Assembly (NCBI GenBank): GCA_016342585.1
Contig: JAEINK010000014.1
Location: 1-64,000, forward strand
Reading direction: 5' to 3'
DNA: 64,000 nt
DNA from: Spirochaetales bacterium
GTDB taxonomy: Bacteria > Spirochaetota > Spirochaetia > UBA9216
Every line of letters begins with the position of its first letter. The first letter of the stretch is position 1. Below, piece by piece: positions 13,859 to 29,762 of the stretch. A program made the translations under genes and the position numbers. A model generated the notes under the pieces. The model was given only the letters and a program-made list of their open reading frames with translations. It had not been told where the DNA came from and ran no database searches.

Positions 13859-14713
13859 ATGACAAGATTACACCGAAAAATAGAAAACGCCCTGGACTAC
13901 AAAAACTGGAATAATACGGGGGTCGCCCTCTGGTGGTTGGGACAGGCGGGGTTCCTTATAAAACATAATGGAATAACCATCCTTGTGGATCCCTATCTGT
14001 CGGATGCTCTCGCAGCGAAATACAAGGGAAAGAAATATCCCCATACAAGGATGATGGATCCCCCGATTGCCCCGGAAGAACTTACCAAAATCGATTACTA
14101 TCTCTCAAGCCATGCCCATTCGGATCATATGGATCCGGGCCTGATTCCTCTCGTCGCAAAAAATAATCCCGACTGTACCTTTATTATCCCGGCCGCAACT
14201 CTCGAGACAGGACTCACCAGGGGAATCCCTGCAGACAAAATGATCCTTATGGATGATGGAGAAAAATACAGGGCGGGAGGCTCCATAACAATTCACGCCC
14301 TGTCATCGGCCCATGAAAAACTTTCTAAAAACAATGATGATAAGAACCTCTTTCTCGGTTATGTAATAGATCTCCATGGATTAACCATCTACCATTCGGG
14401 CGACTGCATCCCCTACCCCGGCTTAAAACAGAAACTCGCAAGCGCTTCTATCGATCTGGCCCTCTTACCGGTAAACGGCAGATCTGATATCCTCCGCACC
14501 GATGGCATAGCAGGAAATTTCACCCTGGATGAAGCCCTGGACCTGATGAATGAAAATATCTCCTTTATGATTCCCCATCATTATGGTATGTTTGATTTTA
14601 ACACAGTCTCTCCCGATTGGATTAAACAGACAATAATGGAGAGAGGTATGGAGTCCCGGGTATTTCCCGCAGCGACTGGATTATATTTTCAACTGGATGG
14701 TTCGGATGAGTGA
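13859..14713 (+). CDS. UlaG-like metallo-beta-lactamase-fold hydrolase
   Basis: A 284-residue protein with the metallo-beta-lactamase metal site HAHSDH (SSHAHSDHMDP), an upstream LGQAGFLIKHNG and ILVDPYLSD, a downstream YHSGD, and a C-terminal IPHHYGMF. This arrangement is that of UlaG, the L-ascorbate-6-phosphate lactonase, and related lactonases. In this operon it probably opens a sugar-acid lactone (phosphate) formed by one of the dehydrogenases; that is an inference. The start at 13859 is preceded by GGGAG inside the kinase stop region, and an earlier in-frame start would run back into the kinase gene. The stop overlaps the start of the DeoR gene. Confidence 0.82.
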   Translation: MTRLHRKIENALDYKNWNNTGVALWWLGQAGFLIKHNGITILVDPYLSDALAAKYKGKKYPHTRMMDPPIAPEELTKIDYYLSSHAHSDHMDPGLIPLVAKNNPDCTFIIPAATLETGLTRGIPADKMILMDDGEKYRAGGSITIHALSSAHEKLSKNNDDKNLFLGYVIDLHGLTIYHSGDCIPYPGLKQKLASASIDLALLPVNGRSDILRTDGIAGNFTLDEALDLMNENISFMIPHHYGMFDFNTVSPDWIKQTIMERGMESRVFPAATGLYFQLDGSDE

Positions 14714-15494
14714 CATGACAAACAATGGTGACAAAATTCTTTTCGCGGAAGAACGAAAGCGTAAACTTGTAGATTATATCAATGAAAAAAGAAGCGTAAC
14801 CGTTCCCCAGCTCTGTTCCGATTTTTCGGTTTCCAGCGCGACGATTCGAAATGATCTCCGGGAACTGGATGAGGCGGGTTTCATAACCCGGACCCACGGC
14901 GGGGCCATAAGAAAATCCAAGACAAGGAATGAACCCGTCATAGACAAGAGAGTCTCCGGCAGTGAAGAAAAAAAGACAGTGGCACGATTGGCCCTGGAGT
15001 GCATCGATGACGGCGATACAATCATACTGGATGTAGGCACGACGATTGTTGAGCTTGCCAGGATCCTGAATAAAAAAAGGGATATTACGGTTGTTACAAA
15101 CGATCTTACCATAGCCTCTATCCTCGAACCGTTCGAAGGTGTTCAGGTTGTGATTATCGGCGGAATCTTAAGGTCCGGCTTTCACTGCACGATTAACCAC
15201 GGGACGGCTTCCCTCCTGAACGCTATCACGGTAGATAAGGCCTTCATGGGGGCAAATGCTTTCTCCCTGGAACGGGGGGCGAGTGCTCCGGACCTTTCCC
15301 AGGCGGAAATGAAGAAGCAGATGATTTCTGTTGCCTCCAAGGTTTTCATTCTCTGCGACCATACAAAACTGGAGACAAACTCCTTCATGAATTTCGCATC
15401 CTTAAAAGAGACAGACCTTCTAATCACCGACAAGATTCCGGAAAACTTCAAAGAGAGTTATGGTGATGCGGATGTAGAAATTCTTACTTCCTAG
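14706..15494 (+). CDS. DeoR-family transcriptional repressor
   Basis: A regulator of about 262 residues. The N-terminal winged helix-turn-helix (VPQLCSDFSVSSATIRNDLREL, then GFITRTHGGA) is followed by the DeoR sugar-phosphate sensor domain with DVGTTIVELARIL, TNDLTIA and GGILR. Such proteins normally repress sugar operons until a phosphorylated intermediate binds the sensor domain. It is the last gene of the operon and overlaps the upstream hydrolase gene, so it is autoregulated if it acts at the promoter at 9549. ATGs at 14697, 14706 and 14715 are all possible starts; 14706 follows GGATGG. Confidence 0.9.
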   Translation: MSDMTNNGDKILFAEERKRKLVDYINEKRSVTVPQLCSDFSVSSATIRNDLRELDEAGFITRTHGGAIRKSKTRNEPVIDKRVSGSEEKKTVARLALECIDDGDTIILDVGTTIVELARILNKKRDITVVTNDLTIASILEPFEGVQVVIIGGILRSGFHCTINHGTASLLNAITVDKAFMGANAFSLERGASAPDLSQAEMKKQMISVASKVFILCDHTKLETNSFMNFASLKETDLLITDKIPENFKESYGDADVEILTS

Positions 15495-15615
15495 GATTTC
15501 CAAAGAAGAGGAATCTATTGTCGCTCCACTCATCCTGGTCTCAATATTTACCTTAGTATAGATCTCCGGCAGAGAAGTGGTATTCATAATTAAGGAATCG
15601 ATTTGATCGACCTGA

Positions 15616-16308
15616 TTAGGATGTTATTGTGTAATTATCAATTCTAATTTTGACAGTTCCCGATCGAACCTCAAAAAGAGACCTCTGAAGGATAGAGGCA
15701 TCAAAAGATCTGACAGAAAAACTATCAACACCGATATTAACATCGGTATAACTGGGGTTTTCGTCTCTTCTCGTATCTGGTTCTATTTCAACAGATATCC
15801 ATTCACCCGTATTGATCTGGATCCTATCAGCATAACGTCCATCATGATATATATCATAAGTGAATGGATAATCATTTGTTCCTCCATGAAAAATATAATC
15901 ACTTCCATCGTTGGAGAAAAATAAATACTGGGGGTCATGAGTCGAATAGTCGGATGTTGAAACCAGGGCTGATATTATCCCGGTAGAATCAATCTCTTCA
16001 ATATATAGATCGAAACTTATCGTATAAAATCCAGACAGAACACTGTCACAATTATCATAACCGAATATTATCTGATTATCAGGATAGTCTGCATTGTTTA
16101 ATTCCAGGTATAGATAGCTGTTTTCACCTTCTGACCGTATTTCAGCCGAACTGTCCCCAAGAAGAAAAAGGAGGATTTTGTCATCCATAACTTCATCTTC
16201 GAAATCTTCCTCAATTTCCGTAGAATCGAAAATATCGCCAAGATTACACGAAGAGAAAAGAATAGATAATTGGAATATGATAGATATAACAAAGATCAAT
16301 TTATTCAT
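15616..16308 (-). CDS. Lipoprotein of unknown function
   Basis: A 230-residue exported protein. A hydrophobic N-terminus ends in a lipobox-like LFSSC, then comes an acidic linker (EIEEDFEDE) and a Ser/Thr/Asp-rich beta-type body (ISFDLYIEEIDSTG..., YTDVNIGVDSFSV...). The body resembles a jelly-roll or laminin-G-like carbohydrate-binding domain in general pattern, but no motif fixes this. The upstream start at 16315-16317 sits directly against GAGG, which cannot serve it, whereas the ATG at 16308 has GAGG nine bases before it; hence the start chosen. It is co-transcribed with the exported protein just upstream, whose stop codon overlaps this ribosome site. Confidence 0.6.
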   Translation of the reverse strand: MNKLIFVISIIFQLSILFSSCNLGDIFDSTEIEEDFEDEVMDDKILLFLLGDSSAEIRSEGENSYLYLELNNADYPDNQIIFGYDNCDSVLSGFYTISFDLYIEEIDSTGIISALVSTSDYSTHDPQYLFFSNDGSDYIFHGGTNDYPFTYDIYHDGRYADRIQINTGEWISVEIEPDTRRDENPSYTDVNIGVDSFSVRSFDASILQRSLFEVRSGTVKIRIDNYTITS

Positions 16309-16319
16309 TAACTTCATCC

Positions 16320-17558
16320 TCAGCGGTAATAGATCTGTACGTTCATGGACATAATCATCTTATCTGAAAGAAAAGAGGCCTCGGGAGCAACCATATTAAT
16401 AATTCCTGAAAACAGGAAACGTATGGTTGTACCGATAAGCATCTTATCATTTAACGCATATACTCCGCCGGAAAATCCGGCATTAAATCCTTCATCCGAC
16501 ATATACATATCCGTATCATAAGGGAAAATACCTTCATCCATAAACGAATAATCCAGATATGAAAGTTCCGGACCATAGCGAAAGGTCATACCCGGCTTAT
16601 CAGGGGAAGCTTCAAAGATTGTATCCATGGTATTCGAAGGATGCTCGCCCCTTGAGGCAAAAATAATTTTCATAATATCAAACCGTACTATTAGTTTATA
16701 AAGGTGTGATTTAAGGGGCACCAGGCCTGTTTCGATAAATAAACTTGAATTCCCCAGGGGTATCAAAAAAGAACCTTCAATCATGAACTCATCATTATCG
16801 GGAAGGTATAATGTGCTAATCAACGGCATGAATGGAATTCCTGTGAAAAAAACATTGTTCAGAAGCTTTGGAACCGAATAATCCCTTACGATTAATGTAT
16901 TGAGAACTCCGAAATTTTCTGTGAATTTCTGAACCGTCCGTTTAAGCCCTGCAAAGGTTTGATTCCTCTTAAAGAGCTTATCAATATTACTGATATTAAA
17001 GGTGTATTTCTGATATTCAAATGCCTGAATCCCCGCACTATAGGGAAGATTTTCGCTGGGGTCCTTATAAAACTCGGTGAGATTGCTTGATGAAACCCCC
17101 AATGTCAGAATATCAAAGAAAATCATACTTGCCTCAATATCATATCTAATAAAATTATTGTCATAAAACTGAGCATCGATCCATTCAACCGACTCATGAG
17201 GAGTAAGGAAATTCGAAATGTTTATAAAAGAACCCGAAGCGGAAAAATTGAACTTCAGATTTTTCCCCCCAAGTTTTGTCTGCATAAATCCCAGATTCAA
17301 GGATGGTATGGTGTCTTTGCTGGAGGGACCCAGCATAAAATTAGTATTAATACCGAAAAGTGGTTCGGGGAATTCGTCCACCTGCTTTTCAAAAAACCTT
17401 TGATAGTTATCATTGAAAAAACCGGACTCTTCCAGCATAAGCCATTGCGACACAGCATCTACGGTCCTATCTTCAATAGTGGGATTATCCTGAGATGATA
17501 AAAAGCTTATCTGAACTGTCAGAATGAAAACCCACAGTAGTTTTTTCATATTAATCAT
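16320..17558 (-). CDS. Exported, probably beta-barrel outer-membrane protein of unknown function
   Basis: A 412-residue protein with a signal peptide (KKLLWVFILTVQISFLSSQ) and a body of alternating hydrophobic and polar residues with many Phe, Tyr and Gly, ending in NVQIYYR. Segments such as LNLGFMQTKLGGKNLKFNFS and MLIGTTIRFLFSG read as amphipathic strands, and the length suits a 14-16 strand barrel. I recognise no family. It is the first gene of a two-gene unit with the lipoprotein at 15616; the pair could form an outer-membrane/lipoprotein complex. The Met three codons in (17549) is an equally good start; no clear ribosome site distinguishes them. Confidence 0.6.
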   Translation of the reverse strand: MINMKKLLWVFILTVQISFLSSQDNPTIEDRTVDAVSQWLMLEESGFFNDNYQRFFEKQVDEFPEPLFGINTNFMLGPSSKDTIPSLNLGFMQTKLGGKNLKFNFSASGSFINISNFLTPHESVEWIDAQFYDNNFIRYDIEASMIFFDILTLGVSSSNLTEFYKDPSENLPYSAGIQAFEYQKYTFNISNIDKLFKRNQTFAGLKRTVQKFTENFGVLNTLIVRDYSVPKLLNNVFFTGIPFMPLISTLYLPDNDEFMIEGSFLIPLGNSSLFIETGLVPLKSHLYKLIVRFDIMKIIFASRGEHPSNTMDTIFEASPDKPGMTFRYGPELSYLDYSFMDEGIFPYDTDMYMSDEGFNAGFSGGVYALNDKMLIGTTIRFLFSGIINMVAPEASFLSDKMIMSMNVQIYYR

Positions 17559-17775
17559 TGACTCAGTATAGGTTTGTAGATTTCTGCTGTCAATATTTAA
17601 TGACCAGGGATTTCATTATGATTTATTGAGACTGTAACTCAACTTTATTGACGGATAAATTACAATACAATCATTCTCCTCTTCTGTTTCAATTTAGCAG
17701 TTTCTTGCTTCGAAAATATAATTGTTAGGATTGAAATTTCAATATATAGCACTAATTTTTCTGCAAATAAAATAT

Positions 17776-17820
17776 TTGCCACCCCAGAAATTCCATACTT
17801 TAATTACTTACAGTAAGAAA
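17776..17820 (+). promoter_or_regulatory. Promoter and candidate operator of the tct operon
   Basis: TTGCCA and TTTAAT are spaced by 17 bases (17776-17781, 17799-17804). Overlapping the predicted start is TTAC-N5-GTAA (17804-17816) within TACTTACAGTAAGAAA (17805-17820). This 16-mer also contains the palindrome CTTAC-A-GTAAG. It differs at one base from the element at the 40.4 kb sugar-transporter promoter. Placement over the start suggests a repressor site. Confidence 0.55.
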
Positions 17821-17843
17821 TATAAAGAGGAGAAAAAAAAAGC

Positions 17844-18848
17844 ATGAAAAAACTATTGTTGTTGGTGGTGTTAGCAATGCTGGTCCCGGTTATGATTTTT
17901 GCAGGAGGCCAGGCAGATTCTGGACAAACAATTGATGATAATTTCTTTGACAAAACCGTTAAAATTATCATTCCCTATGGCGCAGGTGGAACACATGATG
18001 TAGTTGCCAGGAAAATCGCTGAAGTTGGATCCAGATCCAGATACACGAATGCTCCAATCGTTTGCGTACAGGAAACCGGAGGCGATGGCCTTGTAGCAGC
18101 AATTCACTTTACAACGAAAGATCCCAATGTAAGGGAGCTCCTTACAACATCTTATGGACTCTGGTACCAGAAAATTGTTAAAGGTGATGCCATAAACCTT
18201 GATCTATCCAAGATTCATCCTATAGGAACCTTTGATGACAGATCCTATCTTCTTTATGTAAGATCCGACTCACCCTACCAGACCCTGGAAGACCTTATTG
18301 CAGAATCAAAGAAAAGAGAAGTTGTTCTTTCAGCTGGTGCCGTCGGTGCTGATGCCCATCTCTGTTTTGGAGGCCTTATTAATCAGGCTGGGGGTAAAAG
18401 CCGAATAGCTTCTTATGAAGGTGGAGCACAGCAGATTGCGGCTCTTCTCAATGGTGAAGTAGACTGCTTTGTTGGTACTTCTCAGGTTGGCAAGCAGTAT
18501 CTTGAACTTGGCCAGGTACGAGCAATCACAACATTCAAAGATTTTGATTTTACCGGTTTTAAGGATGAATTAGGGATTGTTGTTCCTAATGTTGCCGATG
18601 CCGGTTATCCTCAGAGTGCAATCACCGGCGGTGGTATGCTCAGTGTAAGAACTGGTACTGATGAATCCTATATCGCCGATGTAGAAGAACTGATCAAGAA
18701 AGTATGGGCAGACCCCGACTTCTCGAACTTTACTACAGATATCGGTCTTAATATTTTTGATATCTACGGTGATGATCTCACCAAGCATATTGAAAAGGCT
18801 GCGGCTAACGCTACCCTTTCCGCAAAATCTCTCGGTTTGATTGACTGA
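17844..18848 (+). CDS. tctC: Tripartite tricarboxylate transporter substrate-binding protein (TctC/Bug family)
   Basis: A 334-residue exported protein. The signal peptide ends in IFAGGQADSG, without a lipobox Cys. The mature start TVKIIIPYGAGGTHDVVAR is the family hallmark; the PYGAGG-T-D loop holds the ligand carboxylate. It binds a carboxylic acid (citrate, tricarballylate or another organic acid) in the periplasm and delivers it to the TctAB membrane complex encoded next. AGAGGAG at 17826 precedes the ATG. A strong hairpin follows the gene, so it is probably made in excess over TctB and TctA, as is usual for binding proteins. Confidence 0.9.
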   Translation: MKKLLLLVVLAMLVPVMIFAGGQADSGQTIDDNFFDKTVKIIIPYGAGGTHDVVARKIAEVGSRSRYTNAPIVCVQETGGDGLVAAIHFTTKDPNVRELLTTSYGLWYQKIVKGDAINLDLSKIHPIGTFDDRSYLLYVRSDSPYQTLEDLIAESKKREVVLSAGAVGADAHLCFGGLINQAGGKSRIASYEGGAQQIAALLNGEVDCFVGTSQVGKQYLELGQVRAITTFKDFDFTGFKDELGIVVPNVADAGYPQSAITGGGMLSVRTGTDESYIADVEELIKKVWADPDFSNFTTDIGLNIFDIYGDDLTKHIEKAAANATLSAKSLGLID

Positions 18849-18870
18849 TAACTATCAAGAATTCAAATGT

Positions 18871-18898
18871 AGGGGTTCCATGTGGAACCCCTTTTTTA
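18871..18898 (+). terminator. Hairpin between tctC and tctB (terminator or attenuator)
   Basis: A 10-bp stem (18871-18880 with 18883-18892) closes on a very short loop and runs into TTTTTT. It lies between two genes of one operon, so partial termination would set a high binding-protein to membrane-subunit ratio. Confidence 0.85.
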
Positions 18899-18916
18899 AA
18901 TTAATTAAAAGGGGTT

Positions 18917-19378
18917 ATGATGAAAGTCAGAACGAATCTGGCAGGAGGAATCATATTCATCGTTTTTGGAACGATACTGCTGCTCCTGTTGAATACACAA
19001 GTAATAACCTATGGTAACATCGCTTTTTTGCAAAGTGCAAAGGTTGCACCATTTTTCGCCGAAATTATCATGATCACCGGGGGCATCCTTTTGGTAATCC
19101 AAAGCCTTGTGTTTAAAAAAGAAAAAATTGTTGACATCAACTTGGGCGAACAGAAATTTGCAATAGCCACACTGATAGTCTTCTGTCTTTTTGCCGCCGC
19201 GATCTATTATGCCGGGTTCATTATTGGAAGCCTTTTATTTGTTGTTTTGATGTTTGTTCTTAACCGAAACAAAAGTATCCCTCAGTTTATCGGGCTATCC
19301 ATCCTGGCAATTGGAATATACTTTCTTTTCACCAGTGTTTTCTATGTGCAACTACCGGGTGTAGGAGGGGTAAACTGA
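18917..19378 (+). CDS. tctB: Tripartite tricarboxylate transporter small membrane subunit (TctB)
   Basis: A 153-residue hydrophobic protein with four predicted membrane helices (FIVFGTILLLLLN, IIMITGGILLVIQSL, a long helix pair in the middle, and a last helix FIGLSILAIGIYFLF). Size, topology and position between tctC and tctA identify it; primary sequence is poorly conserved in the family. AAAGGGG precedes ATGATG, so the start is either 18917 or 18920. The stop codon overlaps the start of tctA by one base, indicating translational coupling. Confidence 0.85.
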   Translation: MMKVRTNLAGGIIFIVFGTILLLLLNTQVITYGNIAFLQSAKVAPFFAEIIMITGGILLVIQSLVFKKEKIVDINLGEQKFAIATLIVFCLFAAAIYYAGFIIGSLLFVVLMFVLNRNKSIPQFIGLSILAIGIYFLFTSVFYVQLPGVGGVN

Positions 19379-20940
19379 TGTTCGAAGTATATTCAGAAGT
19401 ATTCACACAATTGTTCACACTTACAAATTTGGTTTATTCAGTCGGCGGAGTAATGCTTGGTATGATTATCGGATGTATACCAGGCCTCACGGTTACCCTT
19501 GGTATTATTCTACTACTTCCCATGACATATGGAATGAATTCAGTTACAGCCATTGTTTCATTACTCGCAATCTATGTAGGAGGTTGCTATGGTGGCTCCA
19601 TCAGTGCAATCCTGATCAACACACCTGGAACAAACTCTGCTCTGGCGACGACATTAGACGGATACCCACTTGCCAAATCTGGGAAAGCGAATAAAGCACT
19701 GAGTACAAGTTTATTTTCTTCCTCTCTGGGCGGTTTTCTGGGTGCTATCATCCTTCTCGTGGCAGCCCCCCCCATAGCTTCGGTTGCCATGAAATTCAGA
19801 TCTCCAGAATACTTCTCCCTCGCTATCTTCGGCCTTACTGTTATCGCAGGGGTCTCAGGTGATAACATTGTGAAGGGGATAATTTCAGCTTTCTTTGGTA
19901 TTTTCATTTCCTGCATAGGACTGGAATCACTTTCGGGTACACTTCGATATACCTTCAATTCAGTGGGGTTATTTGGCGGTATCAGCCTCCTGCCAGCCTT
20001 GATTGGACTTATTGCTTTGGCTCAAGTGATCGTTAAAACGGTGGAAGAAAAGGCAAAGAAAGCCAACAAAGAATCTGAAAACTTTTCAGAACATATTGAG
20101 GATCCTGGAATCAATGGACGAGAAAGACGCTCAATACTTAAAACAATCTTGAAGTCGACAGCAATTGGAACGATTATTGGCGCAATGCCCGGAGCCGGTG
20201 GTGGTGTGGCCCAATTTGTCAGTTATAATGAAGCGAGACGCAGCAGCAAAACCCCGGAGAAATTCGGGCATGGATCACTTGAGGGTGTCGCAGCAGCGGA
20301 ATCCTCAAATAACACTGTCGTCGGTTCTGCAATGATCCCTCTGCTCACCCTCGGTATCCCTGGTGATGGTGTAACAGCAATCCTTCTTGGTGCTTTTATA
20401 CTCCATGGTATGGAACCGGGTCCAAAATTATTTACAGATCAGGCTGTTGAAACCTATTCGATCATAATTGGACTTATTATTTGTAATGTCTTCCTCTATA
20501 TTCTTGGGTCGATTTTTACCAAGCAAATATCAAAAGTCATCAAGATATCGTATAAGATCCTTGGTGTTGCTATCTCCCTGTTCTGCTTTGCCGGTGCTTT
20601 TGCCAACAGCGGAAGTATATGGGAGATGCTGCTTATCGTACCCCTTGCCGCCGCCGGATACTTCCTCGGACTTCTGGGATTCTCAGTCATACCGATGATG
20701 CTTGGGCTAATCCTTGGGCCTATTGTAGAGAATAACTTTTCAAGAAGTATGATCGTCTATGATAATGATCTGTTTATTTTCTTCAAAGAACCGATCAGCT
20801 GTGGGATCCTTATCTTCGCTGTAGTTTTCACCATTCTTATCGTGCGAATGAACAATCAAATTCATGAGCGAGCGGTGGAACAGACTGATGAAATTATGCA
20901 GACCGACAAAAAGGAACCAGCAACAAAGCCAGAGGATTAA
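19378..20940 (+). CDS. tctA: Tripartite tricarboxylate transporter large permease (TctA)
   Basis: A 520-residue polytopic permease with about 11-12 helices. It has family motifs: an early GCIPGLTVTLG, then NTPGTNSALATTLDGYPLAKSG, a central GAMPGAGGGVAQFVSYNEAR, and LGIPGDGVTAILLGAF. The paired PG loops form the substrate path of this sodium- or proton-coupled secondary transporter. With TctC and TctB it imports an organic acid. No TctDE two-component system is adjacent; control may be through the element at 17805. The C-terminal 30 residues are charged and cytoplasmic. Confidence 0.93.
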   Translation: MFEVYSEVFTQLFTLTNLVYSVGGVMLGMIIGCIPGLTVTLGIILLLPMTYGMNSVTAIVSLLAIYVGGCYGGSISAILINTPGTNSALATTLDGYPLAKSGKANKALSTSLFSSSLGGFLGAIILLVAAPPIASVAMKFRSPEYFSLAIFGLTVIAGVSGDNIVKGIISAFFGIFISCIGLESLSGTLRYTFNSVGLFGGISLLPALIGLIALAQVIVKTVEEKAKKANKESENFSEHIEDPGINGRERRSILKTILKSTAIGTIIGAMPGAGGGVAQFVSYNEARRSSKTPEKFGHGSLEGVAAAESSNNTVVGSAMIPLLTLGIPGDGVTAILLGAFILHGMEPGPKLFTDQAVETYSIIIGLIICNVFLYILGSIFTKQISKVIKISYKILGVAISLFCFAGAFANSGSIWEMLLIVPLAAAGYFLGLLGFSVIPMMLGLILGPIVENNFSRSMIVYDNDLFIFFKEPISCGILIFAVVFTILIVRMNNQIHERAVEQTDEIMQTDKKEPATKPED

Positions 20941-20985
20941 TATCCACAAACAGAGGTGTTATTACATTCTGTTTCTTCCAGTAAT

Positions 20986-21057
20986 GCTTCGGTAATAATT
21001 ATGGTATAAACAGCCTGAATATGAGGCTTCTTTAATATTACCGAAGCAGCTCTTTTT
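20986..21057 (+). terminator. Long two-tier hairpin after tctA
   Basis: A 12-bp outer stem (20986-20997 with 21036-21047) encloses a 5-bp inner hairpin (AGCCT 21012-21016, AGGCT 21024-21028). CAGCTCTTTTTAAA follows, with a five-T run. It most likely terminates tct transcription. A riboswitch for the cobalamin gene is less likely because a promoter lies between them. Confidence 0.55.
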
Positions 21058-21155
21058 AAACCCACGGAAAATACTCTTCTAATCCACTATTTTCCAAAGA
21101 CCCATGACTTAAAACGAACAACCAAGATATTCTAAAAATATCCTGCAATTCTCCT

Positions 21156-21182
21156 TTGAATCATCGGAAATTCTATTATAAT
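21156..21182 (+). promoter_or_regulatory. Promoter of the cobalamin-binding sensor genes
   Basis: A perfect TATAAT at 21177-21182 is preceded by TTGAAT at 21156-21161, a 15-base spacer (a 16-base spacer uses TTTGAA). An inverted repeat, GATATT-N5-AATATC (21126-21142), lies just upstream and may bind a regulator. Confidence 0.4.
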
Positions 21183-21264
21183 TAATAGTAGGTTCCTGGT
21201 ACATCCAGCAGCCCCCATGAATGCCCGGGGAGCTCCCGGAGTCGTTCATAAAGGAGTAGAAAAG

Positions 21265-22374
21265 ATGAACTTGAATCTTGATGAAGTTATAAAAGAAGCA
21301 AGAAGTCTTCCCTTGATCTCTTTACAGGGAATGACAAACTACCAGAAAAATATACCAAAGCTGCAAAAATATGTTGACGACACCATGTCCTCACACCCAT
21401 CCATAAATAAGATAATTGGTAATAAGCCCCTGGAAGTCATGTATGCCAATCACAAACATCATGCCGCTTTTATGTTGACAGTGTTCAGTATAGGGAACTA
21501 TGAACTGCTTGCCAGGACTATCCCCTGGGTATATAGAGCTTACTCTGCCCATAATTTTTCATATGATTACTTCCCTCTGGAGTTAGAGGCATGGCTTGAA
21601 GCGGTGGGAAAATACACAGCCCTGGAATTAACAAAAGAAATAAAATTAGTATATGAATGGATGATAAAAAAGCATGAAAATATGATTTCTTTATCCCAAT
21701 CAAAAATGGGGTCACAACCTCCGATCAGTGAAAACTGGCTTGAGACAAAGAACTCCTTTTTTACCGCGATTTTAGAGGGGGATCACAAAGCCTGCCTTAA
21801 AATCGCCATGGATGCTATTCCCACAGGAAAAGAGATAGAGTCGTTTTATCTGCATGTAATTCAGCCGGTCATGTATGAAGTGGGTATACTCTGGGAGAGG
21901 GGGACGATTTCCGTCGCCCAGGAACATCTTGCCTCGGCGATTGTCGGCCGGGTGATGGCATCCACAAGTATGCTGAATGCTGCCCCTGCCAAATATATTG
22001 GCAAAGCCGTTATAACAGCAGCTCCCAATGAATTTCATGAAATCGGAGCCTGGATGATTTCGGATATACTCGAAAATGAAGGATGGAATGTAAAATACCT
22101 TGGGGCCGATACCCCGGCAGAAGATCTCCTTGAAATGCTCCACTCCTTTCAACCGCAGGTTCTGGCCCTATCCATTACAATGCCCTTTAACATCCTGAAA
22201 GCCAAAGAAATGATAGGTAAAATCAGAGAGAATGAAGAACTTAAAAAGATTCAGATCATCATAGGCGGACGTGTATTCAATGAAAACACGGACTTATGGC
22301 GATCCACCGGTGCTGATCATTTTGCGGCCAATGCCCATGATATAAAGGCTTTCCTGGGAGAAAAGAGTGCCTGA
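21265..22374 (+). CDS. Standalone cobalamin-binding sensor, candidate B12 photoreceptor
   Basis: A 369-residue cytoplasmic protein. Residues about 155-240 form the helical cap of B12-binding proteins and contain W210-x9-E220-H221, the Wx9EH signature of AdoCbl photoreceptors such as CarH. Residues 247-365 form the Rossmann B12 domain with ExHxxG (E256, H258, G261) and the late IIIGGRVFNE loop. The first 150 residues are helical and unrecognised; there is no MerR DNA-binding domain as in CarH, and no methyltransferase domain. The start at 21265 has AAGGAG eight bases before it. Its stop shares one base with the start of the PAS gene, so the two products probably work together. Light or oxygen sensing through bound cobalamin is inferred, not shown. 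Confidence 0.8.
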   Translation: MNLNLDEVIKEARSLPLISLQGMTNYQKNIPKLQKYVDDTMSSHPSINKIIGNKPLEVMYANHKHHAAFMLTVFSIGNYELLARTIPWVYRAYSAHNFSYDYFPLELEAWLEAVGKYTALELTKEIKLVYEWMIKKHENMISLSQSKMGSQPPISENWLETKNSFFTAILEGDHKACLKIAMDAIPTGKEIESFYLHVIQPVMYEVGILWERGTISVAQEHLASAIVGRVMASTSMLNAAPAKYIGKAVITAAPNEFHEIGAWMISDILENEGWNVKYLGADTPAEDLLEMLHSFQPQVLALSITMPFNILKAKEMIGKIRENEELKKIQIIIGGRVFNENTDLWRSTGADHFAANAHDIKAFLGEKSA

Positions 22375-23001
22375 TGGATAATCTAAGGGGTCTGATTTTA
22401 CAGCACGCAGATAAAATTGAGGATTATTTCATAAACACAGAGACACTTGTCTTTATTGTACTTGATCAAGACTTGATAATATCAGCACATAACTCTTGTT
22501 TTTCCAGAATTGTTGCTTCAGGAAAAGATGCTGCCGGGAAATCCATACTCACATTTCTACTCCCGGAAAGTCAGAATCTCTTACCCCTTTCTGGGGGCCA
22601 CTACCAAACAGTCTCTCTGGCTGAATTTTAAATCGGATTTCTCCCCCATTCCTCTACAGTGTTACATTTCGAAGATGGAAAATGGAAACCATTTAATATT
22701 TGGCGGGAATCTTATGCTCACCAACGAGCAGATCCTCCAGAAAATGACTACCATGTCCAATGAAATATCCAATATCACCCGCGACCTCCACAAAAAGAAT
22801 AAGGAACTGCAGGAGGCTCAGTCAAAGATAAATGTACTCAGCGGAATCGTTCCCATCTGCATGCACTGCAAAGAAATCCGGGATGATGAGGGGTACTGGA
22901 ACCAGCTTGAAAAGTATATCACGGAACATTCTGATGCCCAATTCAACCATGGCATCTGTGATAAATGTCTGGAGAAGTATTATCCGGATTCAACGTCCTG
23001 A
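22374..23001 (+). pseudogene. PAS-domain sensor gene with a C-terminal Cys-rich motif, one-base frameshift
   Basis: Frame 3 encodes a PAS-like start (LVFIVLDQDLIISAHNSCFSR, then AAGKSILTFLLPES) and stops at 22631. Frame 1 continues the same protein (KSDFSPIPLQCYISKMENG, a coiled-coil stretch, then the Cys-rich end) to 23001. Removing one T from the TTTT run at 22626-22629 gives ...LAEFKSDFSP... and a single product of about 208 residues. The end has PICMHCKEIRDDEGYW and HGICDKCLEKYYP, a CxxC...CxxC module seen at the tail of many bacterial sensor proteins, possibly metal- or redox-binding. It overlaps the B12 sensor gene by one base. The frameshift may be real or a sequencing error. Confidence 0.7.
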
Positions 23002-23033
23002 CGAAAGGTTTTCAGAACTCTTGTTTTGATTAA

Positions 23034-23336
23034 ATGAAAATGTGGGAAAATTTCACCTGTTTCGACAGTGCCGATAAAGAATCAACCGATGGTGCTGAAG
23101 CATTCTTTGACGCCTCATTCCAGTTTACAAACTCCAAAGGATGGAGCGGTTGCGGGTTTGAGAAGCTGAACTCAATGGCACGAGGTTCGGATGGGTATTC
23201 AACCCCGAAAGAAATCCGGGATGCAGGCCATGCAAACAATCCCAATTCGTTCACTTTCCGATATCAAGATAAGGTTTATAAGGCTCTTAATCCCAATGAT
23301 ATGGGTGATACTTATTATGAGACCTTAGAAGATTAG
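23034..23336 (+). CDS. Small hypothetical protein
   Basis: A 100-residue polar protein with two cysteines (C9, C40) and many Asn, Asp and Gly residues; it has no signal peptide, membrane segment or recognised motif. Codon usage and amino-acid mix look like a real protein, and a strong terminator follows at 23364. However, no ribosome site is visible before the ATG (the upstream sequence is T-rich), and a second Met two codons later is equally possible. It lies 32 bases after the PAS gene and may be transcribed with it. Confidence 0.4.
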   Translation: MKMWENFTCFDSADKESTDGAEAFFDASFQFTNSKGWSGCGFEKLNSMARGSDGYSTPKEIRDAGHANNPNSFTFRYQDKVYKALNPNDMGDTYYETLED

Positions 23337-23363
23337 ATTCGGCTTCTATACTCCATTATTATA

Positions 23364-23404
23364 CGGGGGAAGGATTCGCCTTTGAGCGGAGAATCCTTTC
23401 CCCG
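23364..23404 (+). terminator. Hairpin terminator between the convergent units at 23.3 and 23.4 kb
   Basis: A 14-bp stem with one G-U pair (23364-23377 with 23391-23404) and a 13-base loop, followed by GTCTTTGTTATAT. It ends the B12/PAS transcript and could also act on the opposite-strand MACPF gene, where the following sequence is less T-rich. Confidence 0.7.
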
Positions 23405-23440
23405 GTCTTTGTTATATATGAATAGATTGTGATGCAAGGA

Positions 23441-24895
23441 TCAATCTATATAGTTTCTTGAAAATTGGAGGTATATGGTATCACCTCCTGCACCTTCACT
23501 CAGATCCTGAATTTGGCCATTTGTATTATAGGCTTCTTCAAAGGTCAGTCCCATAATTTCGGATGATTCTCGTGAATAGGTGACCGATTCTCCTCTGTTG
23601 TCAATCCGAAGCGCCCTAATGGGCAGCCCATTGTCAGTATCTCTGGAATAATAGATATAAATATAGTCACCACCGGCACCGGAATTTGTATCACTGCCTC
23701 CGTTTACATAACCCGCAGGTGGGGCTGGATCTTCCATGTTGTATACTACGATATCGGTAATGGGAGGATGAGAGGCATCATTATCCAGACCTAATGCCGC
23801 ATAAATAAAAACATCATCCCCCCCGGCATCCTCATTAAGGTCCTGACCCATTTTATAATAAACCAGACCACCATCGGTATACGATGTATTTCGATCTTCA
23901 TCAATCACATTGATATCGAGGATGGCTTTCCGGGGTTCAGAATTGAACTGAAGTTGCCCCTCTTCTGCCCAAGCCTGAAACGCCTCTTGTACTTCTATAC
24001 GACGGATATCGTTATTACAGAATTCCCAAATAGGGATCAAGCTGTTTTCGTAATAGTCGCAGAAGACAGGATTATTATCAATTGTCTCCAGCCAGGCATC
24101 ATAATCGTCTTTTGTGGCAATACTTATTGCATATTGACTGTCGCCTCCATAGGCTCTGAGAGATTTTAATTCACTTGATGAGTAATTGCTGTATTCTGCA
24201 GCTGATAATACAGAGGTGGATACATCAGCACTCATCAGGAGCCCCCTGTAACTGGCTTCTGCATAAACACCAATGGAATGACTCCCGGACAGATCTGAAG
24301 TCCTTGCTGAGATATTATAATCCAGCCGGGCTCCTACTACTACCCCTGTCATTAAATGGGTGCCATATGTGGAAAACAGGGTATCTGTATCAAAATCGGG
24401 ATCATTTAACCGATCCGAAAAGGTCTCGGTCAAATAAGGTTTAAGAGATGCTGTAATAGAACGGTCCGCCAATAGTAGTCCGTATTTATGCACATAAATC
24501 TTGATTGTAGCATAGGAGTATTCGCTGCTGCTGTACCGCTCTTCACTATATGCTGTTTTGATGGAACCGGAAAAACCTCTATAATCTCCACTGATGCCTG
24601 CTGAGGTCATAAGAGAAGAGCTGTATGTATCTATGGAGGTCCCTTCAATACTTTCGTAATTACTGACTTCCATGTTTGTAGTCTTTACCATATCATCATT
24701 TAAAAGGGCATCCAGATCCAGAATCCTCTCCTTAACCTCAGAACTAACTGCATATTTCCCAAATACATCATAACCACATCCTAAAATATCCATTCCGCTA
24801 ACATTGTTCTCTTCAGTGGGAGCAAATAAAGAACATCCAGTTTGGAGGATTAATAACAATATAAACAAAAAAAAGATTTGCTTTTTCATTAACAT
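23441..24895 (-). CDS. MACPF (perforin-fold) lipoprotein with C-terminal beta-prism-like domain
   Basis: A 484-residue lipoprotein with lipobox LQTGC (Cys21). Residues about 35-300 form a MACPF/CDC domain: the signature Y177-G-T-H180 is followed by x7 and G188-A189, close to the family Y/W-G-T-H-F/Y-x6-G-G, and it is preceded by Ser/Tyr-rich stretches that could be the membrane-inserting segments. Residues about 325-484 carry three AGGD repeats (357, 407, 469) each followed by an aromatic strand (DVFIYAA, YIYIYYSRD, TIYLQFSRN), plus ITDIVVY...PAGY. That is the layout of the three-fold MABP beta-prism found in some MACPF and endosomal proteins. AAAGGAG lies nine bases before the start. It could act in pore formation, defence or adhesion. 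It is a lone gene. Confidence 0.8.
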   Translation of the reverse strand: MLMKKQIFFLFILLLILQTGCSLFAPTEENNVSGMDILGCGYDVFGKYAVSSEVKERILDLDALLNDDMVKTTNMEVSNYESIEGTSIDTYSSSLMTSAGISGDYRGFSGSIKTAYSEERYSSSEYSYATIKIYVHKYGLLLADRSITASLKPYLTETFSDRLNDPDFDTDTLFSTYGTHLMTGVVVGARLDYNISARTSDLSGSHSIGVYAEASYRGLLMSADVSTSVLSAAEYSNYSSSELKSLRAYGGDSQYAISIATKDDYDAWLETIDNNPVFCDYYENSLIPIWEFCNNDIRRIEVQEAFQAWAEEGQLQFNSEPRKAILDINVIDEDRNTSYTDGGLVYYKMGQDLNEDAGGDDVFIYAALGLDNDASHPPITDIVVYNMEDPAPPAGYVNGGSDTNSGAGGDYIYIYYSRDTDNGLPIRALRIDNRGESVTYSRESSEIMGLTFEEAYNTNGQIQDLSEGAGGDTIYLQFSRNYID

Positions 24896-25064
24896 AATTT
24901 GAAACTCCTTTTATCTATAACAACTATATTTTATATATTAATATACCATAAAACATATTTTTTGAAAAATATTCATGGTGTCCAAAGACTATTTACTAAA
25001 TTTTTTAACAGCTCACCCAGATGCCATGATATACTTTTGAAGAAATCGACATCGGAGCGTTTCA

Positions 25065-26915
25065 ATGTTTAAAAAGAATTTATTTTTAATTTTTGCTGTT
25101 TTAACTCTATTCATTTTCCGGCTGCCAGCCTGTACCAGTCTGATCGTCACTTCAGGTGCCTCCAAAGACGGCTCGGTCATGCTCTCCTACTCCATGGATG
25201 CCTCCTTCCTATACGGTGAACTTTATTTCTGGCCGGCGGCAGACCATGCCCCAGGAACCATGATCGAACTCTACGACTGGTGGGATGACGGGAAATACAT
25301 GGGTGAGATTCCTCAGGTTGATCACACCTTTCAGGTTACTGGAAATATAAACGACCACCAGGTCGCCATTGCCGAATCCACATTCATCCCCATAGACAGA
25401 GAACTTTTATCGCAATCCAGGGCGATCATGGATGTGGGAAACCTGATGTACATAACCCTCCAGAGGGCCTCAACTGCTCGGGAGGCTATTGCCATTATGG
25501 CCGAGTTGACTGAGCAATACGGTTATGCAGGATTCGGTGAATCCTTTTCGATTATAGATAAAAATGAAGCCTGGATTATGGAAATCGTCGGAAAAGGACG
25601 GCTGGAACTGGGTGCTGTCTGGGTCGCCCGGAGAATCCCCGACGGGTATGTCGCCGGCCATGCCAACCAGGCACGTATAACGACCTTCCCTCTGGATGAT
25701 CCGGAAAACTGCCTTTACGCCCCGGATCTGATTTCTTTTGCCCGGGAGAAACGATACTGGACAGGAAATGATAAAAACTTCAGTTTTGCCGACACCTACT
25801 CTCAGGTCAACGGAGAAGTCATCCGGTGGGGAGACCGACGCATCTGGAATGCGTTTCGCCGAATGGGAGTCGATATGGAAACCTGGGCCGAATATAGTCT
25901 GGGCAGTATCGAAAAGAGGCATCCCCCCACTGGTGCCCCTGGCGGTATAATCTCCAATCGCATGCCACTATGGGTCAAACCCGCTAAAAAACTAAGTCCT
26001 TCGGATCTGATGAGCTTGATGCGGGATCACTATGAAAACACTTCAGAGGATATGTCACGGGGTCTATGGGCCGGTCCCTATTCCCTCCCTTACCGTACAC
26101 GGCCGCTTAAAGTCCTGCATAGCCCAGAGAATGGATTCAGCCACGAACGCCCCATTTCCATCCAGCAAACCGGATTCTCCTTGATCGCACAGGCACGCAG
26201 CAGCTTCCCCGATCCGATTGGCGGTATCAACTGGTTCGGCGTCGATGATACGGGGCATACGGTTTATGTACCCGTCTACTGTGGCGTTACGGATATTCCA
26301 CCCTGCTTCACCCACAGGGAGGATGGTCTCATTAATATTTCCTTCGATTCAGCTTACTGGCTTTTCAACCTGGTTTCCAATTGGAGCTATACCCGGTATA
26401 CAGATATCTTTCCTCATATCAAAAGGGCCCAACGCTCCCTTGAGGAGGATTTTATCAGGCGAGCGGCAGACACCGATGAGAAAGCCCAGGCCTTGTACAT
26501 TTCTGATCCGGACACAGCAAGGCAGCTTCTGACAGAGACAACACTTTCAGCCGCTGCCGATATGATGAGCCGATGGAGAGAGCTCTGGGAGTTCCTAGTC
26601 GTCAAATATCTGGATGGGAATATCCGCCCTTCGGTCAGAGAGGAGTTTTTAAGGAACAGTCACGGGTTCCTTCAGTATCCCGAAGCCAAGGGGTTTCCAA
26701 CTTTCTGGATTCAGACCATGCTGCAGAGGAAATACAATGTAGATCTGAAAAGCATATATTCACAAGAAGAAATACTGGAAATTTACGGAAAAAACAACCG
26801 GAACTTCATCCTGCAGCTCATCCTACTTGCCCTGACTATCGGATTCGCCGCTTTATCGCTTTATCTTTTCAGAAAATATAGAGTCGAAAAGAACAGAACA
26901 AAGAGAAAACAATGA
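25065..26915 (+). CDS. Family C69 dipeptidase-type peptidase with C-terminal membrane anchor
   Basis: A 616-residue Ntn-hydrolase. Signal-peptide cleavage after LPA would expose Cys23 (CTSLIVTSGASKDGSVM), the N-terminal nucleophile of C69 peptidases. Family segments include FGESFSIIDKNEAWIMEIVG, HANQARI and a long C-terminal part. Unlike classical cytoplasmic PepD it is exported and ends in a transmembrane helix (about 587-606) with a basic tail, so the catalytic domain should sit in the periplasm. It would cut dipeptides or small amides there. The last four bases overlap the downstream permease gene, linking peptide cleavage to uptake of the products. Confidence 0.88.
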   Translation: MFKKNLFLIFAVLTLFIFRLPACTSLIVTSGASKDGSVMLSYSMDASFLYGELYFWPAADHAPGTMIELYDWWDDGKYMGEIPQVDHTFQVTGNINDHQVAIAESTFIPIDRELLSQSRAIMDVGNLMYITLQRASTAREAIAIMAELTEQYGYAGFGESFSIIDKNEAWIMEIVGKGRLELGAVWVARRIPDGYVAGHANQARITTFPLDDPENCLYAPDLISFAREKRYWTGNDKNFSFADTYSQVNGEVIRWGDRRIWNAFRRMGVDMETWAEYSLGSIEKRHPPTGAPGGIISNRMPLWVKPAKKLSPSDLMSLMRDHYENTSEDMSRGLWAGPYSLPYRTRPLKVLHSPENGFSHERPISIQQTGFSLIAQARSSFPDPIGGINWFGVDDTGHTVYVPVYCGVTDIPPCFTHREDGLINISFDSAYWLFNLVSNWSYTRYTDIFPHIKRAQRSLEEDFIRRAADTDEKAQALYISDPDTARQLLTETTLSAAADMMSRWRELWEFLVVKYLDGNIRPSVREEFLRNSHGFLQYPEAKGFPTFWIQTMLQRKYNVDLKSIYSQEEILEIYGKNNRNFILQLILLALTIGFAALSLYLFRKYRVEKNRTKRKQ

Positions 26916-27826
26916 AATCCGTCCTTCGTGTATTTATCTCCATTTCAGGATTTCTGCTTATTCTTCTACTCTTTACAGTACTTCCTTTTTTGCTCTCTCC
27001 CACGGAAACGGGCATCCGATTCTCCCCGGACATTGCTTTAATTCAACTCATTGATTTTTTCCATCAGGTTCAGTCAAACGGGTTCAATGAGTTCGTTTAT
27101 GGATCCATGCCGAGCAGACTGTCGGAGATCATACCGGACTGCTTCCTGAACTCCTTCATCCTCTCCTTTACAGGTAGCCTGACAGGACTCTTCTTCGGTC
27201 TCGGTTCGGGACTATTCATCTCCCGGTTTAATATACGCTGGGGTGAACCGGTAGCAGCCTTTTTCAGTTTCATTCCTGATTTCATCTTTGCTCTGCTCAT
27301 ACAACTCATCGTAGTCCGCATCATCATGCTTTTCCCCGGCTTTCCCATCAGGGCCGTCAGTCAGGGAGATACGGTACTTTTCCTCCCGATGGTCACAATA
27401 GTCCTGTCCACCGGCTCCTACCTAACCGCATCGGTTATTAACAAGATAAAGTTTGAACTGACACAGGAGTATATCCTCTATGCCAAGGCTCAGGGGTATT
27501 CGGTAAACAAACTCTATTACCGGCATCTGTTCCCGGTTATCCTGACACACATCAAAACGGATCTGAAGAAGTACATCTCCCTGATCCTGGCCAACCTCTT
27601 TATCCTGGAAAGACTGTTCAATATCCGTGGACTGTCAAAGATTTTATTCACCTTCGCCTACAAGGTAGAAGCCACCTATCTCTCATCGGCCATGATAACA
27701 ACGACCGATATAACCCCGCACCTGAATGTGGCGATAACCGGGCTTACTTCAATTATCATTCTCTTTTACCTGCTCTATTTCCTATTCCTGGGACTCCTGA
27801 ACATGGTAATAAGGAGGTTTGTCTGA
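26912..27826 (+). CDS. Peptide-type ABC transporter permease (DppB-like)
   Basis: A 304-residue inner-membrane permease with six predicted helices and the cytoplasmic EAA loop (EYILYAKAQGYSVNKLYYRHLFP) that contacts the ATPase. Topology, a large loop after the first helix, and the EAA motif place it with DppB/OppB. It overlaps the peptidase gene before it and shares one base with the DppC-like gene after it. No binding protein or ATPase gene is present in the cluster, so these must be supplied from elsewhere. The sequence is rather divergent from standard DppB. Confidence 0.82.
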   Translation: MKSVLRVFISISGFLLILLLFTVLPFLLSPTETGIRFSPDIALIQLIDFFHQVQSNGFNEFVYGSMPSRLSEIIPDCFLNSFILSFTGSLTGLFFGLGSGLFISRFNIRWGEPVAAFFSFIPDFIFALLIQLIVVRIIMLFPGFPIRAVSQGDTVLFLPMVTIVLSTGSYLTASVINKIKFELTQEYILYAKAQGYSVNKLYYRHLFPVILTHIKTDLKKYISLILANLFILERLFNIRGLSKILFTFAYKVEATYLSSAMITTTDITPHLNVAITGLTSIIILFYLLYFLFLGLLNMVIRRFV

Positions 27827-28716
27827 TGAACCGCACCCTTACCGCCGGCCTTCTTATTCTAACTCTTATTTTTGCCCTTTCTCTCCTGGGGCCCGTCCTC
27901 GCCCCTTTCCAAATAGATCAGGCCGAATCTACCCGCAAGGTAGACGAACATATTACGGGAAGTCCCTTCCATCCGGACTCATACCATCTGATGGGATCTG
28001 ACGTAAACGGTTTAGATATCCTTTCTCTCCTCCTCTTCGGAGCCCGCTATACCCTCTTCTTCTGCCTGGGAACCGCAGCGATCCGACTAATCTTCGGAAC
28101 CCTTATGGCCGGGGTCGCAGGAAGCCGTACGCTTCCTAAATTTAAACTCTTCCAGGGTTTCTCCGCCATTCCCACGATGATCCTTATCTACTACATCCTG
28201 GTGAATATCAACTTCAATCCCCGTTTAACACCGCCGATCCTCGCGCTTATCCATGTGGTTCTTTTCGTACTCATAGGGCTTCCCGGCAGCTTCACCGTCA
28301 TGCAGGATAAAATAGAAGCCTTAAAAAAATCTTCCCACGTAGAAGCAGCGCGCTCCTGCGGGGCCGGAGAGTCCTACATCCTGAGGAAGCACATCCTGCC
28401 CTTCCTTACCGAACCACTTCTGATGCTTCTTCTGCGCGAATCTATTTCCATCCTGGTCCTTATCGGGCAGCTTGGAATATTTACGATTTTTATCGGAGGA
28501 ACGATCGTCATACCTCATCCGCAGACTTTTATATCCCGGACCTACGAATGGTCAGGACTACTTGGTTTTTACAGGGCCAATATCCTCTCCGGTTGGGCTT
28601 ATATGCTACTCTATCCTCTGGGAGCCTATCTGTTCTTTTTGATTGGGCTCTACCTTTGTACCAAGGGACTGGAAATTTATTTTGCCCGGATGTATAAGAG
28701 GATTAAACATATCTAA
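27826..28716 (+). CDS. Peptide-type ABC transporter permease (DppC-like)
   Basis: A 296-residue permease. An N-terminal helix is followed by a periplasmic segment with HPDSYHLMGSDVNGLDILS, the usual LGTDxxGRD-like motif of DppC proteins here read as MGSDVNGLD. The EAA loop is VEAARSCGAGESYILRKHILP. Helices follow to the end. It partners the DppB-like protein to form the channel of an oligopeptide-type importer next to the C69 peptidase. Translation is coupled through the TGATG overlap with the upstream gene. The transcript ends in a T/A-rich stretch at 28717 without a clear hairpin. Confidence 0.85.
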   Translation: MNRTLTAGLLILTLIFALSLLGPVLAPFQIDQAESTRKVDEHITGSPFHPDSYHLMGSDVNGLDILSLLLFGARYTLFFCLGTAAIRLIFGTLMAGVAGSRTLPKFKLFQGFSAIPTMILIYYILVNINFNPRLTPPILALIHVVLFVLIGLPGSFTVMQDKIEALKKSSHVEAARSCGAGESYILRKHILPFLTEPLLMLLLRESISILVLIGQLGIFTIFIGGTIVIPHPQTFISRTYEWSGLLGFYRANILSGWAYMLLYPLGAYLFFLIGLYLCTKGLEIYFARMYKRIKHI

Positions 28717-28837
28717 CTGTTTTTTAAAAAAAAAGATTATTTGAAATCTCCGGAACATCTCACCGCCGTTCAATTCTTTCACCTATAATTCCATCAAGTA
28801 TATTATTCCCAATCCAGATTCTATCAATTCGCTATAT

Positions 28838-29704
28838 TTATTTTAAAGTTACCGGAATATAGATTTCACTTAGTGAATCTTCATTATACGGCCCCTTATG
28901 GTCGGGTGGATAATATTCAAAGTTGAACAAATGCGGGAGTTTGTACTCAGTTTCCGGAAGATATGTATTATAGATATATTCATAGGTTAAGCCGACCTTA
29001 TTGGAAAAACCACGGTGGTAAAATCTCAGATATTTCTGAGCAGGTAAAGTTTTGGCGGTAAACTGAATTGGGATATTTTTAAAAGCTTCCACCTCTATAG
29101 CAAGAAAGAAGAATATCGAACCATAATCCTGATTAGGAAACCAGTACTGAACCTGATAATATTTTTCAGGTTTTACACGATCAATTATCGATTCAGTGTT
29201 ATTTGCAAAAGCCTTCCATGGCACCGACAGGTCTTCCGGCATATCCTGATTAAAATAAAGAGGCATCCCAATTAAATGCAGTGGACCAAAGTCAATCAGT
29301 TCAGGGTCTTTCTCTGGTAGACTTCGAACATATTCGAGTTTCTCTGCGGTCAAAGGTCTCAGAAAATTCTCACTGGTAATCATTTCTCCTGTTTTCAACT
29401 GCCCTGGATTAAATCCAAACTGTTTTTGAAATGCTCTTGAGAATGTTTCAGGACTTCCGAATCCAAAATCAAAGGCAGTATCAATAATCTTCTTATTCCC
29501 ATTCATTAATTCGATCGCGGCCTCTGTTATCTTACGCTTGAGAAGATAGGCCTTTGGAGAAAATCCGGTTACTCCCTTGAACAAACGGATAAAATAATAA
29601 ACGGAAAAACCAAGCTTATCAGAAATCTCCTGAACACTTATTTCAGATTTAAGGTTATCTTCTATTATTTTAAGTGATTCATAGATAATCTGCCTATTAT
29701 TCAT
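28838..29704 (-). CDS. AraC-family regulator with GyrI-like effector-binding domain
   Basis: A 288-residue transcription factor. The N-terminal 105 residues hold two AraC helix-turn-helix motifs (VQEISDKLGFSVYYFIRLFK and IIDTAFDFGFGSPETFSRAF) ending in GFNPGQLK. The C-terminal 160 residues (from about LIDFGPLHLIGMPL to PHLFNFEYYPPD) match the GyrI-like small-molecule-binding fold used by Rob-type regulators. It probably responds to a hydrophobic or cationic compound. It lies just downstream of trmO on the same strand, with a hairpin between them, so it is transcribed separately. Confidence 0.88.
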   Translation of the reverse strand: MNNRQIIYESLKIIEDNLKSEISVQEISDKLGFSVYYFIRLFKGVTGFSPKAYLLKRKITEAAIELMNGNKKIIDTAFDFGFGSPETFSRAFQKQFGFNPGQLKTGEMITSENFLRPLTAEKLEYVRSLPEKDPELIDFGPLHLIGMPLYFNQDMPEDLSVPWKAFANNTESIIDRVKPEKYYQVQYWFPNQDYGSIFFFLAIEVEAFKNIPIQFTAKTLPAQKYLRFYHRGFSNKVGLTYEYIYNTYLPETEYKLPHLFNFEYYPPDHKGPYNEDSLSEIYIPVTLK

Positions 29705-29723
29705 TGTCCGTCCTTAATTATGA

Positions 29724-29762
29724 TGAGGCTATTTCTAAAATAACGATTTTGAAATAGCCTCA
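29724..29762 (-). terminator. Hairpin between trmO and the AraC-type regulator gene
   Basis: A stem of 12 plus 5 base pairs with a single bulged T (29724-29735 with 29751-29762, then 29737-29741 with 29746-29750) and an AACG loop. It sits directly after trmO. No strong T-run follows on the minus strand, so termination efficiency is uncertain. Confidence 0.6.

Follow-up and report, generated by a model that had tools for sequence, protein, structure and literature searches.

The 64,000-nucleotide stretch analysed here (the window: positions 1 to 64,000, forward strand, of contig JAEINK010000014.1, Spirochaetales bacterium assembly GCA_016342585.1) carries a gene for a 369-residue protein in which an N-terminal globin-fold domain precedes a cobalamin (B12)-binding module, followed at once by a gene for a partner with a divergent PAS domain and a coiled coil (Table 1). 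The globin-B12 gene was taken to start at 21265, and not at the upstream ATG (21217) given by the open reading frame (ORF) tool, because of the spacing of the AAAGGAG sequence and because relatives align from 21265. An earlier note, made from the sequence alone, had recognised in the protein the signature of light sensors of the CarH/LitR type, which use adenosylcobalamin (AdoCbl), and had proposed that it signals to the protein encoded next door rather than to DNA. Translation of the frame yielded both motifs as that note had read them: W210-x9-E220-H221 in the cap domain and E256-F-H258-E-I-G261 (ExHxxG, 256-261) in the Rossmann domain.

Table 1. Features of the globin-B12/PAS locus, with positions in the window.
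Feature	Position	Strand	Basis or remark
Globin-B12 protein gene, 369 aa + stop	21265..22374	+	Frame translation, Pfam
Ribosome-binding-site-like AAAGGAG	21250..21256	+	8 bases 5' of start codon
N-terminal globin-fold (photoglobin-related) domain, residues 1-145	21265..21699	+	Structure prediction, profiles
B12 cap (four-helix) domain, residues 164-232	21754..21960	+	Pfam B12-binding_2, E 4.9e-16
Cap-domain signature, G207-x2-W210 and E220-H221	W210 21892-21894; E220-H221 21922-21927	+
B12-binding Rossmann domain, residues 246-352	22000..22320	+	Pfam B12-binding, E 8.4e-20
His258, predicted lower cobalt ligand	22036-22038	+	Rossmann domain
G280-x3-P284 element		+	Within Rossmann domain of globin-B12 protein
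Asn62, at bilin-anchoring Asp position	21448-21450	+	Globin domain
Trp88	21526-21528	+	Globin domain, invariant in 120/120 listed relatives
Partner gene (divergent PAS, coiled coil, C-terminal CxxC/CxxC tail)	22374..23001	+	Frame changed inside
CxxC...CxxC tail of partner	22837..22998	+	Zinc-ribbon-like, as suggested by cysteines
Inverted repeat GCTTCGGTAATA...TATTACCGAAGC then T run, terminator-like	20986..21058	+	Read from sequence

Conservation of the photoreceptor signature

A protein search returned 471 relatives of the window protein at E <=0.001; counts out of 120 for the window type refer to the best 120 of these, most of which are full-length, with identities down to 46%. Residues W210, E220, H221, E256, H258 and G261 are identical in all 120. 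The CarH-type AdoCbl signature of the earlier note is present with its W, E and H conserved throughout, and two of the findings that the note had named as refuting it, homologues lacking these residues and a methyltransferase neighbour, did not appear among the 120 relatives and the loci examined. As a control, we inspected 22 other B12 proteins from the source genome and its class. W plus EH occurs in 11 and not in nine, the other two being fragments without the signature stretch; in seven of the nine, as in methionine synthase and methyltransferase corrinoid proteins, Y or F stands in place of W.

Light-responsive cobalamin domains have been assigned a four-part signature (SignatureFinder) consisting of GxxW, EH, GxxH and GxxxP (PMC11796333). 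The window protein contains GxxW, EH and GxxxP but reads NxxH instead of GxxH. Scored with a pattern of our own, the strict four-part form is found in 6/120 window-type relatives, rising to 120/120 when the G of GxxH is relaxed. The corresponding figures are 119/120 and 120/120 for proteins resembling the photocobilin SasPcob, and 62/120 and 120/120 for the N-terminal photoglobins of the Asp type described below. Since most relatives fail the four-part signature, surveys based on it may have missed most of the family, bearing in mind that the strict count comes from our pattern and not from the published list.

Predicted kinship of the N-terminal domain with photoglobins

In line with the earlier note, Pfam found no helix-turn-helix (HTH) or MerR DNA-binding domain in the window protein. 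The N-terminus, which the note had described as helical and unrecognised, is by structure prediction and profile comparison a globin-fold domain related to photoglobins. Predicted alone, it adopts a globin-like fold with a predicted local distance difference test (pLDDT) score of 95. All 120 listed relatives carry Asn62, His63, His66 and Trp88. Across the 55 loci from the genome scan reported below, conservation of the first three is partly by construction, one search pattern holding NHx[HN]H; the 120 relatives and locus L005 were recovered without that pattern.

The link to photoglobins runs through a second family, referred to here as the Asp type. Its representative, at locus L006, comes from a genome of the same class as the source genome, is 96% identical to a protein of Marispirochaeta aestuarii and carries CAQD in its N-domain, an instance of the CxQD motif given for photoglobins (PMC10151467). 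It matches Pfam Phycobilisome (PF00502) above cut-off (25.3 vs 22.2 bits), and a precomputed PF00502 match accompanies many of the 120 listed Asp-type relatives (the best 120 of 3312 at E 0.001, to which all Asp-type counts refer). Profile comparison related the Asp-type N-domain to the SasPcob-type globins at E 1.3e-15 and to the window-type N-domain at E 7.4e-5. When rerun, the latter comparison scored 30.7, a value reached by none of 300 column shuffles (mean 12.5, maximum 22.2). The direct comparison between the window N-domain and the SasPcob-type globin profile was at chance level (E 0.21, equalled by 21 of 100 column shuffles) and was dropped as evidence, so that the kinship rests on the Asp-type bridge. 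Five N-domains that are split from, or free of, a B12 domain matched the bridge weakly when taken alone (score 19.0, E 0.015). A search of PDB sequences with the N-domain profile gave one match (E 0.78), to an antenna chain from light harvesting, and this was judged to be due to chance.

The alignments equate Asp51 of the Asp type with Asp270 of SasPcob and Asn62 of the window protein, and likewise Trp77 with Trp296 and Trp88, the spacing being 26 in each. In SasPcob, Asp270 anchors biliverdin and Trp296 packs on its ring D; in AbPcob, position 270 is His and biliverdin binding is poor, yet the authors class the protein as a photocobilin (PMC10979010). The anchoring position is Asp in 114/119 SasPcob-type and 120/120 Asp-type proteins and Asn in 120/120 of the window type, in which the phycobilin Cys position is Met in 115/120. 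Judged from its sequence, the window protein is a globin-first, photocobilin-like B12 protein, and given its photoglobin-related N-domain the photocobilins stand nearer to it than CarH/LitR, with which the earlier note had compared it.

Recurrence of a linked signalling partner

Scanning 84,980 species genomes with two peptide patterns identified 55 loci, 44 of which (L024-L067) carry both globin and B12 domain. A signalling gene lies directly 3' on the same strand in 41 of the 44; L055 ends inside the gene, and L026 and L028 have no partner. The B12-PAS gene pair that the earlier note had suggested looking for in other genomes is thus recurrent, which supports its idea of signalling to the protein encoded next door. 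Forty of the 41 partners have the divergent PAS and coiled coil. By motif, their outputs are GGDEF (23), a CxxC...CxxC tail (14) or kinase-like (4). Pfam, applied to selected partners, recognised GGDEF in L037, L038 and L061 and kinase domains in L031, L034 and L050; the L054 partner was not in this selection and its class is by motif. In the L037 partner (L037:9125-10816), a MEDS domain precedes PAS and GGDEF. No methyltransferase-type partner was seen beside the loci whose partners were examined.

A profile built on the PAS-coiled-coil part of 11 tail-type partners recovered 43 of 45 partners (32 of 34 non-seeds), missing those of L054 and L076. The loci contain 806 further ORFs that are 200 aa or longer; the profile matched four of them at E 1e-5, and these adjoin genes for B12 proteins of the wider kind (L005, L006, L070, L010). 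The partners at L007 and L008 match it weakly.

Some loci separate the globin from the B12 domain. L068, L070 and L071 each encode the B12 protein in one gene and the globin in another, next to a PAS kinase; PMC10151467 mentions B12-globin clusters of similar layout. At L076 a globin gene without a B12 domain adjoins a PAS kinase, and L077:7932-10238 encodes the same globin, again without a B12 domain, on one chain with a histidine kinase and three stretches that match PAS. Because the globin stays with a PAS protein even though B12 is on another chain or not found, these loci point to the globin as the transmitter.

The family includes loci from purple sulfur bacteria (L058, L060-L063, L065, L066). 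Inspection by eye, with no family scan, revealed no evident photosynthesis genes among the long ORFs of L058, L060, L061, L063 and L065. Two side observations concern photolyases. At L011:1174-3513, an HTH-B12 protein with the W/EH signature is followed by a gene resembling, by eye, a DNA photolyase, and a gene near a spirochaete pair (L057:5902-6849, minus strand) resembles a DUF523/YbgA protein; such proteins are often linked to photolyase.

The partner gene in the window

The one-base overlap between the globin-B12 gene and the next ORF (TGATG, 22372-22376), reported in the earlier note, is real; the PAS gene that it introduces is broken, however, and Pfam recognised no PAS domain in either half, with PAS_8 matching weakly in some relatives. 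The first part is ORF 22374-22631, and the remainder lies in the frame of ORF 22510-23001. Partners from related loci align in two frames, up to residue 73-82 or thereabouts in the 22374 frame and beyond in that of ORF 22510-23001, and the switch falls somewhere from about 22592 to 22619, a region that holds a run of five G. Similarity to the L024 partner is 49% and 58% on the two sides. Since protein similarity runs on across both, the change would be recent or an assembly error; the sequence is compatible with either a real frameshift or such an error.

The CxxC...CxxC tail is found at six further places in the source genome (L086-L091), seven in all, and the proteins bearing it there carry ABC_sub_bind, SBP_bac_3 and Cache sensor domains. 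The tail, which has no Pfam family, follows the coiled coils of several sensors, at the place where one would expect a kinase or cyclase, and it looks like a general signalling output.

Proposed mechanism and alternative readings

Sequence, predicted structure and gene order show the photoreceptor signature, the relationship to globins and a modular partner linked to the globin-B12 gene. We consider it rather probable that the window protein is an AdoCbl-based light sensor, made of globin and B12 domains, that signals in trans through the globin to the adjacent PAS-coiled-coil partner. The steps that we infer lead from AdoCbl binding and photolysis, through dimerisation and globin-PAS contact, to the sign of the output. 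In the dark, AdoCbl would sit between the cap and the Rossmann domain with His258 below the cobalt, and Trp210, Glu220 and His221 would surround the adenosyl group, close to a dimer interface of the head-to-tail kind found in photocobilins. Cleavage of the Co-C bond by green or blue light would then displace the cap relative to the Rossmann domain, and the globin riding on the B12 domains would change position or uncover one of its faces. Direct contact with the globin would let the PAS partner read this, and the partner's coiled coil would determine the output, be it cyclic di-GMP (c-di-GMP) synthesis, a kinase or, in the window, the CxxC tail.

There are precedents for parts of this scheme. 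Light raises cyclase turnover more than 10-fold in photocobilins of the AdbPcob type, the cyclase domain on which AbPcob and SasPcob act is separate from them, and SasPcob without biliverdin acts with reversed sign (PMC10979010). CarH exposed to light anaerobically stops at a Co(II) state, its final state needing oxygen (PMC10442372); the extent to which the light state would form in the absence of oxygen matters for anaerobic hosts. The globin of the window protein probably lacks biliverdin (Asp is replaced by Asn, and the heme oxygenase family PF01126 was not found in most hosts) and would serve as transmitter. More tentatively, we suggest that a pigment-less globin docks on its dedicated PAS-coiled-coil partner, outputs being swapped while the sensor stays constant, and that the pair might provide a bilin-free green-light sense in anaerobes of such distant groups as spirochaetes, Bacillota, Desulfobacterota and purple sulfur bacteria.

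A different, in our view unlikely, function of the same pocket would be to sense AdoCbl supply or redox state instead of light, by reporting AdoCbl versus other cobalamin. An AdoCbl-gated switch and a light response are inseparable by sequence, and nine of the first ten named or inferred lineages of relatives are not phototrophs by name. Furthermore, the source genome has no match to the adenosyltransferases PF01923 and PF02572, although it encodes a class II ribonucleotide reductase (NrdJ, over the curated cut-off), an enzyme that requires AdoCbl; methylmalonyl-CoA mutase also gave no match there. AdoCbl import by the source organism is the simplest inference. What favours light is that the W/E/H set is that of proteins shown to be photoactive (PMC11796333, PMC10979010), that AdoCbl is photolabile in such a pocket and that the family occurs partly in phototrophic purple sulfur bacteria.

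It is also conceivable, if improbable, that the protein is a dual-chromophore photocobilin, its globin binding biliverdin or another bilin to add red-light sensitivity as in SasPcob. Profiles place the globin with the photoglobins, the Trp at the biliverdin-contact position is kept throughout the listed relatives (W88) and PF01126 is present in six of 50 host genomes (L036, L060, L061, L062, L065, L076), five of them purple sulfur bacteria. These points are set against Asn at the anchoring Asp position and, in 115/120, Met at the phycobilin Cys position, and against the lack of a PF01126 match in the source genome and the other 44 hosts, many of which are incomplete metagenome-assembled genomes (MAGs) and in which other heme-degrading families were not searched. 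Bilin use by the window protein appears unlikely because Asn62 replaces Asp and PF01126 was not found in the source genome and most hosts. Heme oxygenase failed as a discriminator between Asp type and window type: PF01126 is absent with both, having no match in any of four class relatives, among them genomes with Asp-type or Asp-like proteins.

That the globin binds heme, so that the pair would sense oxygen or redox state and B12 would be a second input, is very improbable, since helix 79-94, which by analogy would be helix F with the proximal His, has no invariant His and contains Trp88 instead, and since the profiles relate the domain to photoglobins. Finally, the database name MtbC1, one of the automatic names among relatives, and sub-threshold NCBIfam matches to pyl_corrinoid and MtbC would suggest a methyltransferase corrinoid protein, a reading we find scarcely credible given scores far under the curated cut-offs (65 of 215.3 bits and 51 of 350), the lack of W and EH in methyltransferase-type proteins, their separate place in the tree and the signalling nature of the partners.

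Comparison with known systems

The closest known counterparts of the protein are photoglobins and the photocobilins (SasPcob, AbDPcob; PMC10979010); with the photocobilins it shares a B12 domain having W-x9-EH and E/DxH and a globin of photoglobin type. The window family differs in being globin-first, in having Asn for the anchoring Asp and Met at the Cys/Thr position, and in placing the output on a separate, dedicated PAS-coiled-coil gene. The Asp-type (CxQD) photoglobin-B12 proteins (Marispirochaeta aestuarii P0241, L006) have the same domain order and B12 signature (120/120), and their genes in L006-L008 also precede a coiled-coil kinase or cyclase gene. They differ in carrying Asp in 120/120 where the window family has Asn and in matching PF00502 above cut-off (L006 and P0242), which no member of the window family does.

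With CarH/LitR, the window protein has in common the W, E and H of the AdoCbl pocket and the lower-ligand His. It lacks the MerR domain, however, scores 67 bits with the NCBIfam CarH model (cut-off 400) and has Glu211 in place of the CarH bis-His ligand His132, a ligand that CtMerR and photocobilins likewise lack (PMC11796333). In its gene arrangement the pair recalls AerR-CrtJ and PpaA-PpsR of purple bacteria; AerR senses light through B12, and its gene is cotranscribed with that of CrtJ, the protein it controls (PMC9144470).

Globin-first and B12-first orders are in principle already known. A literature search by title and abstract found no description of this globin-B12/PAS pair, and earlier photoglobin work may hold one. 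The photocobilin study describes the function of standalone photocobilins as less clear and made use of a borrowed cyclase domain (PMC10979010). The window family offers natural, co-encoded partners with three types of output, making the question directly testable. Should the globin work without bilin, it would exemplify a pigment-binding globin turned transmitter.

Origin and genomic surroundings

Among 60 relatives, a close window-type protein was found at L005 only (33% identity), and the relatives with 66-72% identity belong to a Desulfobulbaceae MAG and to metagenomes. Horizontal transfer of the gene is likely; a binning error is a possible alternative, the assembly having 5.35% contamination. 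In a tree of 58 B12 domains, the window protein groups with eight close relatives (99/97) and the methyltransferase types form another group (100/100), the deep forks being weak. The tree does not establish that the window type arose once, because the 16 other window-type rows need three changes and because the B12 domains of the three split loci cluster with Asp-type proteins (98/91).

The inverted repeat of Table 1 sits between the upstream transporter operon and the globin-B12/PAS pair, and its loop is too long for scoring by the terminator scan; promoter and terminator scans gave counts near the shuffle mean. Rfam produced no match on 14000-30000, so no known cobalamin riboswitch lies in that interval. 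The upstream operon (17844-20940, plus strand) is a complete TctC-TctB-TctA tripartite tricarboxylate transporter set. On the other side, 23441-24895 (minus strand) encodes a protein that resembles lipoproteins and has a MAC/Perforin (MACPF) domain (E 1.7e-14).
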